Positions 1 to 37,282 of a stretch of DNA of 37,282 nucleotides are shown piece by piece; position 1 is the stretch's first letter, and each line of letters begins with the position of its first letter. The DNA is taken from the IMG/VR virus record IMGVR_UViG_3300031839_000695, positions 1-37,282 of that record; one strand, 5' to 3'. A program made the translations under genes and the position numbers. This stretch comes from a virus. The notes under the pieces were generated by a model that worked only from the letters and a program-made list of their open reading frames with translations, ran no database searches and was not told the DNA's origin.

Positions 1-89
1 AGCTGATGCTCCACACGGTACAGGATTTCGTACGTCTTGAGCAGCAGTTGGTACGCGTTAGCGCGCGCTGCGGTTAAACTCTTCGTCAT
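1..89 (-). CDS. Small protein beginning MTKSLTAARA, C-terminus cut by the window edge
   Basis: This is the first 29 or so codons of the 59-aa gene seen complete at 36609-36788, with the same start and nucleotide-identical here. In this copy the start codon sits directly behind the AAGGAGAGC ribosome-binding site that serves the 62-aa cassette gene in the right copy. The cassette deletion therefore moves the gene under a new translation signal. It overlaps the end of the 39-aa gene at 58-177 in another frame. Function is unknown. It is incomplete only because the window starts here. Confidence 0.6.
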   Translation of the reverse strand, partial: MTKSLTAARANAYQLLLKTYEILYRVEHQ

Positions 90-177
90 CCCAGCTCTCC
101 TTAATCCATTCGTCATACGTTAAGAAACATTTCCGGTGATAAGACCAAAAGCGACATTGTTTATACACATCACTCAT
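58..177 (-). CDS. 39-aa hypothetical protein MSDVYKQCRFW..., left variant
   Basis: The translation starts MSDVYKQCRFWSYHRKCFLT and ends DDEEFNRSAR. The homologous copy at 36917-37033 differs at a few residues and ends DDEEFGPSR, because the cassette boundary falls inside its last codons. The body is rich in aromatic residues and basic at first (CRFWSYHRKC), then acidic (DEWIKESWDDEEF). Its 3' end encodes DDEEF in one frame and the start ATGACGAAGAG of the next gene in another. Conservation of the frame between two diverged copies supports real coding. No family was recognised. Confidence 0.6.
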   Translation of the reverse strand: MSDVYKQCRFWSYHRKCFLTYDEWIKESWDDEEFNRSAR

Positions 178-494
178 AACGCTATCATCCTGTGATTAAT
201 AATTACTTGCACCGTTACGTCCCATTCGGTTGAATAAGCATACGCTGCTGCCATTTGTTTTGCAACATCTATTACACGCTCTCGCACGTCACCGTTAACG
301 TGATCGGACCAGAAAGGTATGGTGATGACGGGTTGCACCACGGAGTCGCAGTAAATCTTTATCAGAGCGTCCATATCGAAGCTCTCAGGCGACGTAAACG
401 GGTTAGGCATAGGGCTGTACTGCCTAGCCTCAGCGGCCTGCATAGCGGCCTCTGCGGCCTCCTGGCCGGCTTGTATCAATTCTGCTGTCGTCAT
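174..494 (-). CDS. Hypothetical early protein, about 106 aa, left copy
   Basis: The product has an Ala/Gln/Glu-rich helical N-terminus (about residues 1-27) followed by a globular part with NPFTSPESFD, PFWSDHVNGD and VTVQVIINHRMIAL. A partial right-hand copy is at 37030-37282 with two substitutions (VVQP/VVEP, VIDVAK/VIEVAK), both conservative, so the frame is under protein-level constraint. Two ATGs lie in frame, at 500 and 494. The GAGG just upstream is spaced correctly only for 494, although ATG500 overlaps the previous stop as ATGA. Function is not recognised. It is one of the run of small minus-strand genes. Confidence 0.65.
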   Translation of the reverse strand: MTTAELIQAGQEAAEAAMQAAEARQYSPMPNPFTSPESFDMDALIKIYCDSVVQPVITIPFWSDHVNGDVRERVIDVAKQMAAAYAYSTEWDVTVQVIINHRMIAL

Positions 495-496
495 GG

Positions 497-730
497 TCAT
501 GCCTCAATCTCCCAGCGGTCATTGGTTTCGTACACTGTGCCCCAGTTTGCGGGGAACACGGTTTCGCTGCGCAGGTTTCCGTCGCGCCTGTCCTGCTTCC
601 ACTTCACAATCTCTTCAAATTGTTTTTGGTATGGCTCGCCGTTTGCTAAGCAGCGTGTGCGCTCAAGCCGGCGGTGCTGCAGGTCGATGCCTTGCGCAAG
701 GTAGCGCGTTAGCTCTGTGCCAAGATTCAT
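497..730 (-). CDS. Hypothetical protein, 77 aa
   Basis: A charged, mostly helical small protein (LTRYLAQGIDLQHRRLERTR..., FEEIVKWKQDRRDGN) ending DRWEIEA. The start at 730 has a clear ribosome-binding site (AGGAGAAAACGCT-ATG on the minus strand). The stop overlaps the next start as ATGA, so translation is probably coupled to the 174-494 gene. I recognise no domain. Its place among tightly packed small minus-strand genes, first in line from the control region, suggests an early host-takeover or accessory role, which is inference only. Confidence 0.6.
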   Translation of the reverse strand: MNLGTELTRYLAQGIDLQHRRLERTRCLANGEPYQKQFEEIVKWKQDRRDGNLRSETVFPANWGTVYETNDRWEIEA

Positions 731-1346: not shown

Positions 1347-1505
1347 TCACAGTGTAAACAGTAGCGAAACAGCGAGCCACCATGTCCCAAGCAGTAGCGA
1401 AGCGGCGGCGGTGATGGCTAGGGCCGCGATGATCATGCCGGCCCATGCTGCCCAGCGATTAAGCCGGGCTTGGCGTTCGTATTCCTTGCGTGCTGCGGCG
1501 TTCAT
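1347..1505 (-). CDS. Small membrane protein, 52 aa
   Basis: The sequence begins MNAAARKEYERQARLNRW and continues into hydrophobic segments MIIAALAITAAASLLLG and WWLAVSLLFTL, so it has a basic, probably cytoplasmic N-terminus and one or two membrane passes. The ATG overlaps the stop of the upstream gene as ATGA (1505-1502), and the TGA lies 11 bases before the next start, so it sits inside a coupled operon. Its tight fit between neighbours is the main support. No family was recognised. Confidence 0.6.
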   Translation of the reverse strand: MNAAARKEYERQARLNRWAAWAGMIIAALAITAAASLLLGTWWLAVSLLFTL

Positions 1506-1918
1506 GCTTCCACCTCCCGCGCAGCGATGATGCGCTCCGCCGTATTTTCCAAGTTCCAGCTCTGGCAGGCGAAGCCGCCGCCAAACTCGCGGCCCCGGTA
1601 GACGCGGAAGCCTAGCCGGTTGGCGATCTTGTGCGCCTTGCTGTACTCATTAGCGAAGGCGAGGAAGTGGATAACGTAGCGCGGCTCGCCCTTGGCGTTG
1701 TTGTTTACGCGGTAGAAATCATGGCCGAGGGCTTGGGCAGTCTTGTAATCAAGGTGCGCCTTAGCCATACGGGAGTCCTCGTCATAGCCGTCGAACCAGC
1801 CCTCCCCGTGCGTATCGTCGCGGCGGCAGTGTGCCTGCGCTTCGTCAAGGGTCAGACCGCGCTTGATGATGCAGGGCGCGTCGTTAAAGTAAAAGCGAAT
1901 GATTTTGTAAGTTTGCAT
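1502..1918 (-). CDS. Conserved phage hypothetical protein, 138 aa
   Basis: Starts MQTYKIIRFYFNDAPCIIKR. The segment HCRRDDTHGEGWFDGYDE (about residues 29-46) resembles a motif I remember from very small phage proteins of unknown function, here followed by a second half (HDFYRVNNNAKGEPRYVIHFLAFANEYSKAHKIANRLGFRVYRG) that could be a separate fused domain. ATG1918 has GGAGAAAACACA upstream; the frame extends to 1963 without a better site. Cytoplasmic, no signal or membrane segment. Function unknown. Confidence 0.65.
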   Translation of the reverse strand: MQTYKIIRFYFNDAPCIIKRGLTLDEAQAHCRRDDTHGEGWFDGYDEDSRMAKAHLDYKTAQALGHDFYRVNNNAKGEPRYVIHFLAFANEYSKAHKIANRLGFRVYRGREFGGGFACQSWNLENTAERIIAAREVEA

Positions 1919-3372: not shown

Positions 3373-3389
3373 TATTTACGCTCTAGCTC

Positions 3390-3418
3390 TTGACTTTTGC
3401 TCTAAAATATGATAAGAT
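3390..3418 (+). promoter_or_regulatory. Promoter of the structural operon (P1)
   Basis: TTGACT (3390-3395), a 17-base spacer and TAAGAT (3413-3418), with an upstream TG giving an extended -10 (TATGATAAGATA). It belongs to a family of six nearly identical promoters in this genome. The predicted start near 3425 gives an untranslated leader of about 160 bases before terS. Host sigma70-type RNA polymerase is the probable user. Confidence 0.85.
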
Positions 3419-3434
3419 ATATGCTATTGTTTAG

Positions 3435-7300: not shown

Positions 7301-8314
7301 ATGGCCTCTGATCTAGCGTTACTTGCCCTTGTAAAACAAATGCAGGGCTTTACGGGACCGCAAGGCCCGCAAGGCCCTGAAGGCCCGCAAGGCGTACAAG
7401 GCCAGCAAGGCCCTGCCGGTAAGGATGGGCGCGACGGTAAAGACGGCGCTGCTGGGCCACAAGGACCGGCAGGACCGCAAGGTTTACAAGGCCCGCAAGG
7501 TCCTCAAGGACCTGCCGGAGAGGCTGGCGCTGACGGCCAGGACGGTATAGGCGTTGAGAGCGCCTACGTGGCCGCTGACGGCTCGTTAGTCTTTACCCTT
7601 ACGGATGGTAGCGAGGTAGACGTAGGACCGCTCAGCGGGCTTTCTGTGGCCTCTGAGGGCAATACGTACGTTATAGGGCAGGGCAACAAAGCCAATTCTA
7701 TTTACTTAGAGGGCATGGCCGGTCCTGCTATATGGAATAACATTGAAGGCACCGTAGACTTTCCGCTTAACGATGAGGTGACGCTGCAGCTTGGGCAAGA
7801 AGAGCTGTTCTACGCCAAAGCCTCTGAAGCTATTAGCAATGGCGAAGTCGTTATGTTTGCTGGCGCACAAGGCGACCACTTGCTTATCCAAAAGGCTGAC
7901 GTAACTGTTCCGGGCTTTAGGCAAGAGTGGGTTATCGGTGTTGCTACGCAAGACTTTGCTAACAACGACTTTGGGTACGTAACGTCTTTTGGTAAGGTGC
8001 GGGAGCTTGACACGCTAGCGTTTAACGAAGGCGACCTGCTATGGCTGTCGGCTACTACGCCCGGAGCGCTTACTAACGTAGAGCCCGCTAAGCCTGCATG
8101 CTCTGTGCTTGTTGCTGCCGTTACGCGCTCTCACCAAACACAAGGCACTATCTTTGTACGACCTACTACGACTAGCCGCATTGACGAGCTGTGCAACGTA
8201 TCGGCAGCTACGCCCAATGACGGCGACGTGTTGGCTTGGGACGCAGCGCAAGGCATTTGGAAGCCCATTGCGCCTGTCTTCCCGGCCCTTTATGGCATCA
8301 CCACCTACCCGTAA
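7301..8314 (+). CDS. Collagen-like virion protein (head fibre or appendage)
   Basis: 337 aa. Residues about 15-83 are Gly-X-Y collagen triplets ([12 protein letters not shown]..., [10 protein letters not shown]), which should trimerise. The rest is beta-rich, with a region ([24 protein letters not shown]...[24 protein letters not shown]) like the small capsid-decorating or fibre domains of phages. It starts four bases after the portal stop, with AGGAG ten bases upstream. Its place between portal and scaffold suggests a virion surface fibre rather than the main host-recognition fibre, which is probably the S74 protein at 12418. Confidence 0.8.
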
Positions 8315-9241: not shown

Positions 9242-9244
9242 GGC

Positions 9245-9273
9245 TTGACATTTAGTCCAAAATATGATAAGAT
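9245..9273 (+). promoter_or_regulatory. Second structural promoter (P2)
   Basis: TTGACA (9245-9250), a 17-base spacer and TAAGAT (9268-9273); the 15 bases AAAATATGATAAGAT are identical to P1. It lies in a short gap before the genes leading to scaffold and capsid, so it should boost capsid protein output. The predicted start is near 9280. Confidence 0.85.
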
Positions 9274-9322
9274 ATAGTCTATCTTTGAAGTAACCATAAC
9301 GACTGGCCTCACGGAGACAACC

Positions 9323-10019: not shown

Positions 10020-10847
10020 ATGGCACGATTAGTAGACGCACCCGATGACAACGCTGTGGAGGCAACCGAGGAGCTTGGGAACCTTGACGAAATGGCAACG
10101 GAGCAAGCCGCAGAGATTGCGGAAGCAGAGCCGGAGCCGGTAGTCGAAGAGGAACAAGACGACGATCTTCCAGAAAAGTATAGGGGCAAAAGTGCATCAG
10201 AGATTGCAACGATGCACAGGGAGCTGGAGCAACGCCTAGGCCAGCAAAGCCAAGAAGTTGGAGACTTGCGTAAAGCCTTTGACGAAATGGTTAAGCAGTC
10301 TATTGCAGCGCAACAGGCCCAGTCTGCACCGGAACAAGAAGCGGACGAGATTGACTTTTTTACCGATCCGCAGGCAGCAGTACAGCGAGCTATTGAGAAC
10401 CACCCAATGCTTAAGCAGTCTCAGGCTGTAGCGGCAGAAATGGCAAAGTCTCAAGCGCTAGCCCAACTGCAGGCTGCACACCCTGACATGAAAGAAATCC
10501 TTACGGATGCTGGCTTTCAGGATTGGATTGGTAAGTCACAAGTTCGACGTGAGCTGTTTGAACGCGCCGATAAAGCGTACGACTTTGCTGCAGCAGATGA
10601 ACTAATGACGCTGTACAAGGAACGACGCGGCATCGTTGAGCAAACCGCAAAGGTCGAGAAGGTGGCGCAGCAGAACGAAATCAAGAAAGCTTCTACGGGC
10701 TCGGCACGGTCTAATCCCGATAGTGCAAAGACTAGAAAGATTTACCGCCGCCGTGACATTATTGAACTTATGAACCGTGACCCGAAGCGATACGAAGCGC
10801 TACAACCAGAGATTATGCGAGCGTACGCTGAGGGCCGTGTTAAGTAG
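10020..10847 (+). CDS. Scaffolding protein, 275 aa
   Basis: Acidic N-terminus (EATEELGNLDEMATEQAAEIAEAEPEPVVEEEQDDD), a conserved-looking PEKYRGKSASEIATMHRELEQRLGQQSQEVGDLRK segment, long helices and a basic C-terminus (KIYRRRDIIELMNRDPKRYEALQPEIMRAYAEGRVK). The acidic-helical-basic plan and the position immediately before the capsid gene are typical of podovirus scaffolds, which direct shell assembly inside the prohead and then leave. Confidence 0.9.
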   Translation: MARLVDAPDDNAVEATEELGNLDEMATEQAAEIAEAEPEPVVEEEQDDDLPEKYRGKSASEIATMHRELEQRLGQQSQEVGDLRKAFDEMVKQSIAAQQAQSAPEQEADEIDFFTDPQAAVQRAIENHPMLKQSQAVAAEMAKSQALAQLQAAHPDMKEILTDAGFQDWIGKSQVRRELFERADKAYDFAAADELMTLYKERRGIVEQTAKVEKVAQQNEIKKASTGSARSNPDSAKTRKIYRRRDIIELMNRDPKRYEALQPEIMRAYAEGRVK

Positions 10848-10852
10848 CTGAA

Positions 10853-10886
10853 ACGGCATTTGCCGTAACGGCCCATACCCTTACGG
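10853..10886 (+). promoter_or_regulatory. Overlapping hairpins in the capsid gene leader
   Basis: ACGGCA-TT-TGCCGT (10853-10866) can pair locally, while CCGTAA (10863-10868) can pair with TTACGG (10881-10886), right next to the GGAG ribosome-binding site. The two helices share bases and exclude each other, so they could tune capsid translation or protect mRNA ends. Seen in sequence; function is inferred. Confidence 0.4.
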
Positions 10887-10897
10887 AGTAATACACA

Positions 10898-11773
10898 ATG
10901 GCACTTGGATCTAACCACGTAACCAAAACCACCGCTGCTACTTTCATCCCCGAAATCTGGTCCGATGAAATCATTGCAGCATACGAGAAGTCCCTTGTCG
11001 TTAAGCCCCTCGTCCGCTCCATGAGCATGACCGGCAAGAAAGGCGATACGATTCACATCCCGAAGCCCACCCGTGGCAACGCCAGCGTCAAAGCTGCGCA
11101 AACGGAAGTGACCCTTATCGCTGCCACCGAGTCTGAGCTGACGGTCGCTATCGACCAGCACTACGAGTACAGCCGTCTTATTGAAGACATTGTGGACGTG
11201 CAGGCCCTGAACAGCCTCCGCCAGTTCTACACGTCTGACGCCGGCTACGCTCTTGCCACCCGCGTTGACACCGCTCTGATTGCTGAGGCTGCTAACTTCA
11301 CGTCGCAGCTTGAGTTCCGCAGCGGCGCCGGCACGGCCACGGCTGCTGGTACGGCAACGGCTTCTTTCACCGACCTTGGCTTCCGTGAAGCTCTGCAGGT
11401 TCTTGACGACAACGATGTCCCAATGGATAACCGCGTGTTCGTCATTCCGCCTGCTATGAAGAAAGAGCTTCTGGGCATTACCAATTACGTCAGCACGGAC
11501 TTCGTGACCGGCAAGCCCGTTGAGACCGGCAAGATTGGCTCTCTGTACGGCGTTGACGTGTACGTGTCCACCAACCTGCCCACCGAAAACACGGACGAGA
11601 AAGGCGCTCTGCTTATGCACAAAGACGCCATCGTGTTCGCGGAGCAGCTTGGCGTTCGCGTTCAGACCCAGTACAAGCAAGAGTACCTTGCTGACCTCAT
11701 GACTGCCGATACTCTTTACGGAACCGAGACGTATAGGGCTGAAGCAGGCGTTAAGCTCTTTGGCACTGTGTAA
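10898..11773 (+). CDS. Major capsid protein, 291 aa
   Basis: Starts MALGSNHVTKTTAATFIPEI and shows the layout of HK97-fold capsid proteins of small podoviruses: N-terminal arm (FIPEIWSDEIIAAYEKSLVVKPLVRSMSMTGKKGDTIHIPKPTRG), spine helix (DIVDVQALNSLRQFYTSDAGYALATRVDTALIAEAA), and C-terminal P-domain (RVFVIPPAMKKELLGI...GKIGSLYGVDVYVSTNLP). It directly follows the scaffold and its GC-rich, C-ending codon use differs from neighbours, as expected for the most highly expressed gene. It forms the icosahedral shell. Confidence 0.93.
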   Translation: MALGSNHVTKTTAATFIPEIWSDEIIAAYEKSLVVKPLVRSMSMTGKKGDTIHIPKPTRGNASVKAAQTEVTLIAATESELTVAIDQHYEYSRLIEDIVDVQALNSLRQFYTSDAGYALATRVDTALIAEAANFTSQLEFRSGAGTATAAGTATASFTDLGFREALQVLDDNDVPMDNRVFVIPPAMKKELLGITNYVSTDFVTGKPVETGKIGSLYGVDVYVSTNLPTENTDEKGALLMHKDAIVFAEQLGVRVQTQYKQEYLADLMTADTLYGTETYRAEAGVKLFGTV

Positions 11774-11785
11774 CATCAAGTAGTA

Positions 11786-11822
11786 CCGCCGGGGGAAAAG
11801 GTGGCGGCCCAAGTACCCCGGC
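11786..11822 (+). terminator. GC-rich alternative hairpins after the capsid gene
   Basis: CCGCC (11786-11790) can pair with GGCGG (11803-11807), or GCCGGGG (11788-11794) with CCCCGGC (11816-11822). There is no T-run, so it is more likely an attenuator or an mRNA 3'-end protector that lowers expression of downstream genes than a full terminator. Confidence 0.4.
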
Positions 11823-11846
11823 ATCCTACCGCCATAGGATTACAAT

Positions 11847-17543: not shown

Positions 17544-18187
17544 CGTATTTGGAAGCTGTGAATCAAGTGCTGCAGCGGTTACGTGAAGACACCGTAACGG
17601 ACGTAGTGAACCTTGATGACCCCGTAGCTGAAATGGTTACTGCGTTAATAAATGATGCTAAGCAGATTGTCGAAGATGCACACACTTGGAATGCGCTGCG
17701 GCACGAATGGTCCATTACGACTGCTGCAGATGACAACCTATATAGCTTGACAAATGCAGGAAATTATGGTAAGATAGAGGCTATCCTTAAGGATGACGGA
17801 GTGGAGCTTAAGCAAGAACAGCTAAGCGCTATTCGCAAGCGACAAGCCGCATCGCCAGCAAACAACAAACCCAAGTACTATGCAGTCAACGGTGTAGACG
17901 GCAATTACGACATCCAAATACAGCTATTCCCGAAACCTGATGGCGTATACAACTACACCGTATACGGCTTCAAGCGTCAAGCAGAACTCAGCAACAAAGA
18001 CGATGTATTGCTTGTGCCTTCTAAGCCCGTTGTGTACACGGCGCTAGCTATGGCTGCGCGTGAGCGTGGCGAAGTAGGCGGTCAAACGGCAGCGGAGCTG
18101 TTCTCGCTAGCTAATGTGTACCTTAGCGACGCTATTGCTTGGGATGCTTCCCTTAACGATTACGATAACGTCTGGATGACTGTGTAA
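17540..18187 (+). CDS. Tail tubular protein A (T7 gp11-like adaptor), 215 aa
   Basis: MTYLEAVNQVLQRLREDTVT is the typical start of gp11-type adaptors, followed by helices (VAEMVTALINDAKQIVEDAHTWNALRHEW) and a beta region (YNYTVYGFKRQAELSNKDDVLLVPSKPVVYTALAMAARERGEVGG). It forms a ring joining the portal to the nozzle. ATGA overlap with the preceding gene; its stop overlaps the next start. A perfect promoter-family match lies inside it at 17747. Confidence 0.9.
   Translation: MTYLEAVNQVLQRLREDTVTDVVNLDDPVAEMVTALINDAKQIVEDAHTWNALRHEWSITTAADDNLYSLTNAGNYGKIEAILKDDGVELKQEQLSAIRKRQAASPANNKPKYYAVNGVDGNYDIQIQLFPKPDGVYNYTVYGFKRQAELSNKDDVLLVPSKPVVYTALAMAARERGEVGGQTAAELFSLANVYLSDAIAWDASLNDYDNVWMTV
17747..17775 (+). 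promoter_or_regulatory. Intragenic promoter (P3) inside tail tubular protein A
   Basis: TTGACA (17747-17752), a 17-base spacer and TAAGAT (17770-17775) with TATGGTAAGATA, matching the family that precedes replication genes. It lies in coding sequence but agrees in both boxes, spacer and extended -10, so chance is unlikely. It would raise transcription of nozzle and ejection protein genes. Confidence 0.7.
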
Positions 18188-35540: not shown

Positions 35541-35916
35541 CTACGCTGTCCTCGGGGTCAGTTTCCATGAAGAAGTCAAGCTCCCTGCGAACCCTTAAGG
35601 GTCCATCTCCTGGCATGTAGGTGTCGTCGCCGTCAACTGTGTCGAAGTTGCCGTAGGTGCGGGACAGCAGGCCGGTGCGTGCTTCGGTGCGCACGTCGAT
35701 CAAGTCCCATGAATTGTAGCCGCTGTCCATCTGCTGCTCCAAGTCTCGCATTGCGGACTCTCGGTCACGCCTTGCTTCACGTTCAATGTTGTGCTGCCGG
35801 TACTGCTCCGGCGTTATGGCTTCGGTCACGCCGCCCCTCGCCGTGTACTCTGCTACGTCTGCAGCGAGCCGGCGGCGCAGTATCTCCTTCTCCTTAATCG
35901 GTGTGTGTATCGTCAC
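35518..35916 (-). CDS. Hypothetical acidic protein, 132 aa
   Basis: GTG start at 35916 (GGGGATTCTTGA in front). MTIHTPIKEKEILRRRLAAD begins a helical N-terminal half rich in Arg and Glu (EREARRDRESAMRDLEQQM), then comes an acidic region ending TDPEDSVDAEPYED. No catalytic motif or known family. The acidic tail is typical of phage proteins that contact host polymerase or nucleases, but this is a guess. Overlaps both neighbours by about 23 bases. Confidence 0.6.
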   Translation of the reverse strand: MTIHTPIKEKEILRRRLAADVAEYTARGGVTEAITPEQYRQHNIEREARRDRESAMRDLEQQMDSGYNSWDLIDVRTEARTGLLSRTYGNFDTVDGDDTYMPGDGPLRVRRELDFFMETDPEDSVDAEPYED

Positions 35917-36142
35917 TCAAGAATCCCCCGTAGCGGTTGTCGCGCAGCCATGCGGCATGTTCCTCTGCTTCCATGTAGTCTCCCAGTACGGTTTCAATGG
36001 CCCGCAAAACAGTTACGTCCTCCGGGTACACATAAAAACTAACCATTAAGTTGTAATAATCTTGAAGCTCTGCCACTACGATCTCCGCAGCGAACTCGTG
36101 CATGGCTTCCGTGAGTACGCCAGACAGCTTTTCAGTTAGCAT
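35894..36142 (-). CDS. Hypothetical protein, 82 aa
   Basis: MLTEKLSGVLTEAMHEFAAE, then IVVAELQDYYNLMVSFYVYPEDVTVLRAIETVLGDYMEAEEHAAWLRDNRYGGFL. Mostly helical and acidic, no membrane segment. It overlaps the upstream gene by 11 bases and the downstream gene by 23. No family recognised. Confidence 0.6.
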   Translation of the reverse strand: MLTEKLSGVLTEAMHEFAAEIVVAELQDYYNLMVSFYVYPEDVTVLRAIETVLGDYMEAEEHAAWLRDNRYGGFLSDDTHTD

Positions 36143-36446
36143 CTTGCGCTTCCCTCCCCTTTGCTTTTGCGATGGCAGCCAAAGCTATCTTCAACGCTTC
36201 GGAGCCGAGTGCAGCAATTTCTTTGAACTCATAGATGCGCCCCGGCTCAAACAGACCGACTATTTTCTCCAATGCCTCCAGCAACTCCGGCGCCGCAGCG
36301 ATGAGATAGGCGTCAGCTATGTTATCAATTACGCCGCAGTCTACGCCAAGGTATTCAGCGACGTAGTAGACAGATTCCGGCGCGAGAATGTCAAAGCCCG
36401 CTACACGTTCCTCAAAAATCCAAGGTCCCGGTGTGCGCTTACTCAT
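36132..36446 (-). CDS. Conserved phage protein with TPGPW...LIAAAPELLEALE motif, 104 aa
   Basis: MSKRTPGPWIFEERVAGFDI, then ...GVIDNIADAYLIAAAPELLEALEKIV. The TPGPW start and A.LIAAAPELLEALE helix are a very common signature of small phage proteins of unknown role, found throughout tailed phages. I prefer ATG36446 to the longer frame because the family begins there and it overlaps the preceding stop (ATGAGTAA). Probably an early accessory gene. Confidence 0.78.
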   Translation of the reverse strand: MSKRTPGPWIFEERVAGFDILAPESVYYVAEYLGVDCGVIDNIADAYLIAAAPELLEALEKIVGLFEPGRIYEFKEIAALGSEALKIALAAIAKAKGREAQDAN

Positions 36447-36609
36447 GTTCTTCCTCCGCAGCCTCAAGTCCCACCTCTATGGCACGCAGCACGCCCAAGC
36501 TAAGGAACGCATGGGCCGCTTCGCTGTCCATATCAAGCACTACCGTAGCGCTGCCGTCTTCGTTCTCCACTATGTCAATCACTTCGACGTGAAACTTTTT
36601 AGCTTCCAT
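36439..36609 (-). CDS. Small conserved-type phage protein, 56 aa
   Basis: MEAKKFHVEVIDIVENEDGS, then ATVVLDMDSEAAHAFLSLGVLRAIEVGLEAAEEEHE. The strand-strand-helix plan with NEDGSATV..DMD.E....L..G...AI..G resembles a widespread short phage protein. GGAGGAGCAGTG precedes ATG36609, and the start overlaps the previous stop as TGATG. Function unknown. Confidence 0.7.
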   Translation of the reverse strand: MEAKKFHVEVIDIVENEDGSATVVLDMDSEAAHAFLSLGVLRAIEVGLEAAEEEHE

Positions 36610-36788
36610 CACTGCTCCTCCTCGTCAGTGTTCAGCTTTTCATCAAGCAATTCAATAGCTTGCGCAATGTCAATAAGCAATCGCGCTTCGTCGTCGCTAA
36701 GCTGATGCTCCACACGGTACAGGATTTCGTACGTCTTGAGCAGCAGTTGGTACGCGTTAGCGCGCGCTGCGGTTAAACTCTTCGTCAT
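36609..36788 (-). CDS. Small hypothetical protein, 59 aa (complete copy)
   Basis: MTKSLTAARANAYQLLLKTY, then EILYRVEHQLSDDEARLLIDIAQAIELLDEKLNTDEEEQ: wholly helical, acidic at the end. Its first 15 coding bases equal those of the 62-aa gene upstream (both start MTKSL), and that repeat is the border of the variable cassette. The start lies inside the 62-aa gene, whose last codons (DDEEFNRSAR) use the same DNA in another frame. The same gene is cut at 1-89. Confidence 0.65.
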   Translation of the reverse strand: MTKSLTAARANAYQLLLKTYEILYRVEHQLSDDEARLLIDIAQAIELLDEKLNTDEEEQ

Positions 36789-36945
36789 CTATAGTCTCCA
36801 GAAAGCGTTGCATTAAACTCTGATACGAACTGACGCCAGCCATAAAACCCTCGCGCCATTGTTCAGTTTGTAAGCTAAGGACAAACTCGTCAAATTGTAG
36901 CGGTTTCTCTAGCAACTTAACGAGACGGTCCAAACTCTTCGTCAT
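36757..36945 (-). CDS. 62-aa cassette gene present only in the right variant
   Basis: MTKSLDRLVKLLEKPLQFDE, then FVLSLQTEQWREGFMAGVSSYQSLMQRFLETIDDEEFNRSAR, helical with W..GF..GV. Start at ATG36945 behind AAGGAGAGCTGGG. Both ends overlap neighbours through the same word, read as DDEEF in one frame and as the MTKSL start in another. It is missing from the left copy by a clean in-register deletion. Function unknown; a dispensable accessory gene. Confidence 0.7.
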   Translation of the reverse strand: MTKSLDRLVKLLEKPLQFDEFVLSLQTEQWREGFMAGVSSYQSLMQRFLETIDDEEFNRSAR

Positions 36946-37033
36946 CCCAGCTCTCCTTAATCCATTCGTCGTAAGTTAAAAAGCATTGCCGATGGTAAGA
37001 CCAAAAGCGACATTGTTTATACGGATCACTCAT
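36917..37033 (-). CDS. 38-aa hypothetical protein MSDPYKQCRFW..., right variant
   Basis: MSDPYKQCRFWSYHRQCFLT, then YDEWIKESWDDEEFGPSR. Same gene as 58-177, with substitutions VYK/PYK and RKC/RQC and a different last few residues because the cassette border alters its end. It overlaps the start of the 62-aa gene. Presence in two variants at about 95% DNA identity supports the frame. Confidence 0.6.
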   Translation of the reverse strand: MSDPYKQCRFWSYHRQCFLTYDEWIKESWDDEEFGPSR

Positions 37034-37282
37034 AACGCTATCATCCTGTGATTAATAATAACTTGCACCGTTACGTCCCATTCGGTTGAATAAGCATACG
37101 CTGCTGCCATTTGTTTTGCAACTTCTATTACACGCTCGCGCACGTCACCGTTAACGTGATCGGACCAGAACGGTATGGTGATGACGGGCTCCACCACGGA
37201 GTCGCAGTAAATCTTTATCAGAGCGTCCATATCGAAGCTCTCAGGCGACGTAAACGGGTTAGGCATAGGGCTGTACTGCCTA
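37030..37282 (-). CDS. Hypothetical early protein, N-terminus cut by the window edge
   Basis: The same gene as 174-494. Visible part starts at RQYSPMPNPFTSPESFDMD-like sequence near the edge and ends VTVQVIINHRMIAL. It differs from the left copy at two residues (Q/E and D/E). The missing N-terminal codons lie beyond the window, that is, at 427-494 of the left end if the genome is circular. Confidence 0.65.
   Translation of the reverse strand, partial: RQYSPMPNPFTSPESFDMDALIKIYCDSVVEPVITIPFWSDHVNGDVRERVIEVAKQMAAAYAYSTEWDVTVQVIINHRMIAL

Follow-up and report, generated by a model that had tools for sequence, protein, structure and literature searches.

Unlike ends of an uncultured phage contig as probable strain alleles of a single small-ORF locus

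The window analyzed here is the whole of the viral record IMGVR_UViG_3300031839_000695, a stretch of 37,282 nucleotides whose two ends carry versions of one locus encoding small open reading frames (Table 1). The initial annotation held that 1-426 and 36700-37282 are the same locus, with 90 identical bases, then 336 bases with 15 differences, and a 157-bp presence/absence; realignment gave the same counts and placed the correspondence exactly to the base. The first 90 nucleotides of the head copy match 36700-36789 base for base by sequence comparison. Positions 76-426 and 36932-37282 align without gaps and with exactly 15 substitutions, at positions 115, 118, 124, 127, 132, 136, 139, 167, 168, 204, 267, 282, 315, 333 and 335 of the head copy, all of them confined to 91-335 (36947-37191 in the tail copy), and the closing 91 nt are again exact (336-426 and 37192-37282). 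Every difference is bounded by these identical flanks of 90 nt on the left and 91 nt on the right, between which the longest identical stretch is 62 nt. The 157 bases by which the tail copy exceeds the head copy consist of 142 unique nucleotides (36790-36931) and a second copy of the 15-nt motif AAACTCTTCGTCATC, which occurs twice in the tail (36775-36789 and 36932-36946) and once in the head (76-90). BLAST comparison of head and tail returned E values of 3e-164 and 4e-44, so the likeness of the two ends is far beyond chance. The insert-bearing tail version is referred to as allele A and the insert-free head version as allele B. In each copy a reading frame is cut at the contig edge and is whole only when both ends are overlapped.

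Table 1. Features of the terminal locus in the window
Feature	Position	Strand	Remarks
Left flank, head copy	1..90	.	Common to both alleles; starts at the first allele-B-only 91-mer
Allele B patch	91..335	.	Without insert; 15 substitutions relative to allele A
Right flank, head copy	336..426	.	Common to both alleles, 91 nt; recurs as the final 91-mer of the contig
Left flank, tail copy	36700..36789	.	Same as 1-90
15-nt direct repeat AAACTCTTCGTCATC, copy at ORF Y start	36775..36789	.
142 nt unique to allele A	36790..36931	.	Only in three near-identical contigs, in none of the other relatives examined
15-nt direct repeat, copy at ORF X start	36932..36946	.	Allele B has a single copy, 76-90
Allele A patch, counterpart of 91-335	36947..37191	.	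28-mer match in four other contigs
Right flank, tail copy	37192..37282	.	Contig's last 91-mer, already used at 336-426
ORF Y, 59 aa	36609..36788	-	Found in every locus-bearing relative; its first bases overlap the ORF X end; head copy cut at window position 1
ORF X, 62 aa	36757..36945	-	Allele A only; Shine-Dalgarno-like AAGGAG
ORF Z, allele A, 38 aa	36917..37033	-
ORF Z, allele B, 39 aa	58..177	-
108-aa ORF upstream of ORF Z	174..500	-	Complete in head copy; tail copy (37030-37282) cut by contig end

Read on the minus strand, the AAACTCTTCGTCATC motif forms the start of ORF Y and, in the tail copy only, that of ORF X. ORF X begins 7 nt past an AAGGAG that, in the head allele, directly precedes ORF Y; in the tail allele ORF Y has a GGAG of its own at the same spacing. 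Judged from this arrangement, ORF X may use the ancestral Shine-Dalgarno-like AAGGAG and start. No relatives of the predicted ORF X were found in Pfam, PHROG, phages or species genomes, and in IMG/VR it was not found beyond allele A itself.

Elsewhere in the window, matches to terminase, portal, coat, family A polymerase, primase-helicase and class II ribonucleotide reductase mark the genome as that of a tailed phage. The terminase, SU10/P22-like portal and P22-like coat matches are compatible with, although not proof of, headful packaging. The closest named polymerases belong to Pelagibacter and Roseobacter phages at 41-46% identity, which indicates only remote kinship to cultured phages. A nucleotide search of INPHARED with the structural region gave no match and protein searches gave only remote relatives (<60% identity), so no genus can be named. 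No tRNA was found in the window. Three alike, strong promoter-like elements lie on the plus-strand arm (3389-3427, 9244-9282 and 17746-17784), each with CTTGAC followed by TATGATAAGATA and a 17-nt spacer between the hexamers. A 360-aa open frame at 10742-11824 (minus strand) runs antisense to the major capsid gene (10898-11773) and has no PHROG match, and collagen-like 9-nt periodic repeats (7352-7512) open a tail-fibre-like gene.

Three contigs from other metagenomes, IMGVR_UViG_3300032081_000670, IMGVR_UViG_3300031957_001134 and IMGVR_UViG_3300031972_001185, run through the window's end, passing from tail allele A into window positions 427-700 at 100% identity over 1057 bp, and hold the locus in single copy. 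These near-identical allele-A contigs are labelled L004, L005 and L150. With the 15 allele sites left out, L004, L005 and L150 differ from the window at 4 of 15,054, 21 of 18,913 and 4 of 15,470 bp, respectively. Eleven of the 21 differences fall in one 92-bp patch (window 1418-1509) of G002, IMGVR_UViG_3300031957_001134, which is otherwise nearly identical to the window; this patch is possibly another exchanged allele. Insert-free loci occur once each in L151, L021, L068, L070 and relatives further removed. The diagnostic 28-mer of head allele B, GTTAAGAAACATTTCCGGTGATAAGACC, is present exactly in IMGVR_UViG_3300040810_000461, and the matching 28-mer of tail allele A was found in four other contigs. 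The whole allele B patch was found exactly in no other contig. Each allele is thus seen elsewhere as a contiguous, single-copy locus: A exactly in three contigs, and the insert-free type in several relatives, one of them with the 28-mer of B.

These single-copy loci argue that the window's ends are neither a tandem duplication nor an imperfect physical repeat. In the case of a genuine tandem duplication, one genome would hold both copies, since diverged, and a circle of 37,282 bp would have been opened between them. One contig does hold both copies, but the three near-identical contigs proceed from the tail copy straight to 427 onward with one copy only, and the inner gene ends at the duplication, those of the 108-aa ORF and ORF Y, would be truncated. 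In addition, a 29-mer spanning the tandem junction (...GTACTGCCTA followed directly by AGCTGATG...) had no match in IMG/VR, a search from which the window's own record may have been left out. A duplication is already contradicted for the allele-A strain, and overall we regard it as very improbable.

The arrangement of relatives also bears on the form of the genome. Contig IMGVR_UViG_3300040810_000461 (G003; 37,727 bp) has an exact 127-nt overlap of its ends and is opened near window 17.3 kb; it carries the terminal locus once, without the insert. The window's join falls inside G003, and the opening of G003 falls inside the window. The end overlap of G003 sits in a stretch of 9-nt periodic repeats, so this mutual permutation is the stronger argument for circularity. 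(The window's repeats at 7352-7512 also have a 9-nt period.) The join is likewise internal in the related contigs G001, G002 and G009, all opened elsewhere. Overlapping the window's ends makes whole again both the 108-aa ORF, which the right edge interrupts, and ORF Y, which the left edge interrupts, and yields a circular unit of 36,856 bp with allele A or 36,699 bp with allele B, in agreement with the roughly 36.86 or 36.70 kb estimated beforehand. A true direct terminal repeat is not what was found, as the ends are not identical and contigs read through the locus in single copy. A linear genome with imperfect physical terminal repeats would account for the repeat-like look of the ends, yet at least three near-identical contigs and a circularly closable relative have one copy of this locus, placed internally. 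Moreover, repeats that are copied through concatemers should be identical. We give this linear form almost no credence.

In order to examine where the contig begins and stops, a k-mer test was run on both circular units (36,856 and 36,699 bp) with several values of k. With k = 91, the contig opens with the earliest k-mer private to allele B and closes with the earliest shared one following branch A, which already occurs at 336-426; no shared k-mer lies within the bubble. At k values up to 90 the opening k-mer is shared, and at values from 92 upward the closing k-mer is not; only k = 91 fits among the values tried. This fit suggests that the contig is a walk out of branch B, around the circle once, and back by branch A, stopping on its own path. 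Counting against such a walk, 91 is not a common default value of k and the flanks are unequal (90 and 91 nt), though the asymmetry fits a stop on a revisited 91-mer. The ends of the three near-identical contigs also tend to fall at variants: of the 29 SNPs that separate these contigs from the window, 10 are found no more than 150 nt from one of these ends (P = 6e-11).

We therefore propose the following model. The contig would represent one full turn of the circular map of an uncultured tailed phage in whose population two alleles of a small-ORF operon were present. A de Bruijn assembler acting as if at k = 91 would have started at the first k-mer private to the allele lacking ORF X, passed through the shared backbone once, returned through the allele bearing ORF X, and halted upon re-entering a k-mer already used. 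Under the proposed circular walk, the terminal copies are opposite branches of a single bubble, and no molecule carries them as a repeat. A and B would then be strain variants with identical flanks, differing by a short divergent patch and one 62-aa ORF, and the gain of ORF X in A would have duplicated 15 nt at the start of the neighboring ORF. That the terminal copies are alternative alleles of one locus from two near-identical strains, joined by the assembler's circular path, we hold with high confidence. The original suspicion that the contig joins two strain variants finds support in the single-copy loci elsewhere and in the circular map.

The substitutions themselves are mostly silent, with 10 of 15 synonymous (4 of 6 in the 108-aa ORF and 6 of 9 in ORF Z; binomial P = 0.0007 for the excess, a count that includes an ORF Z codon altered by the insert), and other contigs again show site states of A as well as of B. 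The synonymous bias and the recurring states point to old functional alleles rather than sequencing error. It could be supposed that allele B stems from an unrelated lineage and was stitched by chance to a distant phage. B does match the 87%-identical relative L021 at 8 of the 15 site states, and L151 at only 3; against this, the 181 flanking bases of B are identical to A, which has a chance of 0.0006 at 4% divergence, and all known relatives outside the allele-A contigs differ in the flanks. Such a chimera is accordingly assigned little weight, if slightly more than a duplication. Since strains 4% apart would hardly share these 181 bases, we infer that the B strain is a close sibling of A carrying a divergent patch. 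That the patch came by recombinational exchange of a short segment, and in which direction, is likewise inferred; the 92-bp patch of G002 is comparable. The contig further suggests that both strains were together in the window's own sample.

Programmed variation, by a diversity-generating retroelement, an inversion or a phase switch, would likewise leave one locus in two states, and a direct repeat does accompany the insert. Yet the larger ORFs scanned include no reverse transcriptase or recombinase, no inverted repeat of at least 25 nt was found, the substitutions are of several base types and mostly synonymous, and relatives lack ORF X. We consider such a mechanism exceedingly unlikely, and return to strain alleles joined in assembly.

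With regard to the insert, among the distinct relatives that have the locus only the three allele-A contigs carry ORF X; the 15-nt motif, present once, is intact in L151 and almost so in L021 and L068. On this distribution, ORF X was probably gained in the A lineage, which is more parsimonious than repeated loss. A fuller account, which we put forward tentatively and rate below an even chance, is that allele A recently acquired a small gene private to its lineage: a cassette of 142 nt entered where ORF Y begins and 15 nt were duplicated, so that the putative ORF X took over the old ribosome-binding site and start codon and ORF Y received a new site at the same spacing, the near-clonal phages differing mainly by such short exchanged patches. 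As a source of the 142 nt, the rest of the window offered no similar stretch and the loci no convincing one, and a literature search on repeat-flanked gene insertions in phages found nothing on topic. A second clean ORF presence/absence was seen in G004, which lacks about 301 bp near 36149-36449; since no more than a few bases are repeated at the edges of this gap, duplication of 15 nt is not established as a general rule. More broadly, window positions 35915-36607 form a small-ORF region of variable content among relatives: the ORF near 36132-36467 is cleanly missing from G004, and a large part of 35915-36607 from G003.

The joining of alleles at contig ends is a known phenomenon and an ordinary assembly effect. 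Assemblers leave k-mer-length repeats at contig ends, and direct terminal repeats of 55, 77 and 99 bp have been recorded with CheckV (PMC8116208). The window resembles these cases in that a circular map is opened during assembly and the overlap left behind depends on k, as in G003, where it is exact at 127 nt. It departs from them in that its ends carry different alleles, so that the overlap of the whole ends is inexact (exact overlap 0). The outermost bases of the window's two ends contain no identical 20-bp repeat; with different alleles at the ends, an exact end-repeat test misses the closure. A complete phage genome can thus be filed as a 'linear' fragment, and end-overlap searches that tolerate mismatches would recover such genomes together with two haplotypes of one locus. 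Conversely, unlike contig ends should not be taken for biological terminal repeats or duplications.

In the work on COBRA, contigs are described as breaking where a population varies, and the ends that they share measure maxK or maxK-1 (PMC10914622). The window likewise ends at a strain-variant branch point; the branches usually fall in separate contigs, whereas here both lie on one. What looks newly described is the make-up of the 157-bp insert, its 62-aa ORF and its likely gain in allele A. In marine phage genomic islands, members of a near-identical population differ in gene content and in alleles (PMC6487183), as they do at this locus; unlike those islands, which are of kilobase scale, the variable piece here comprises one 62-aa ORF and a 245-bp patch.
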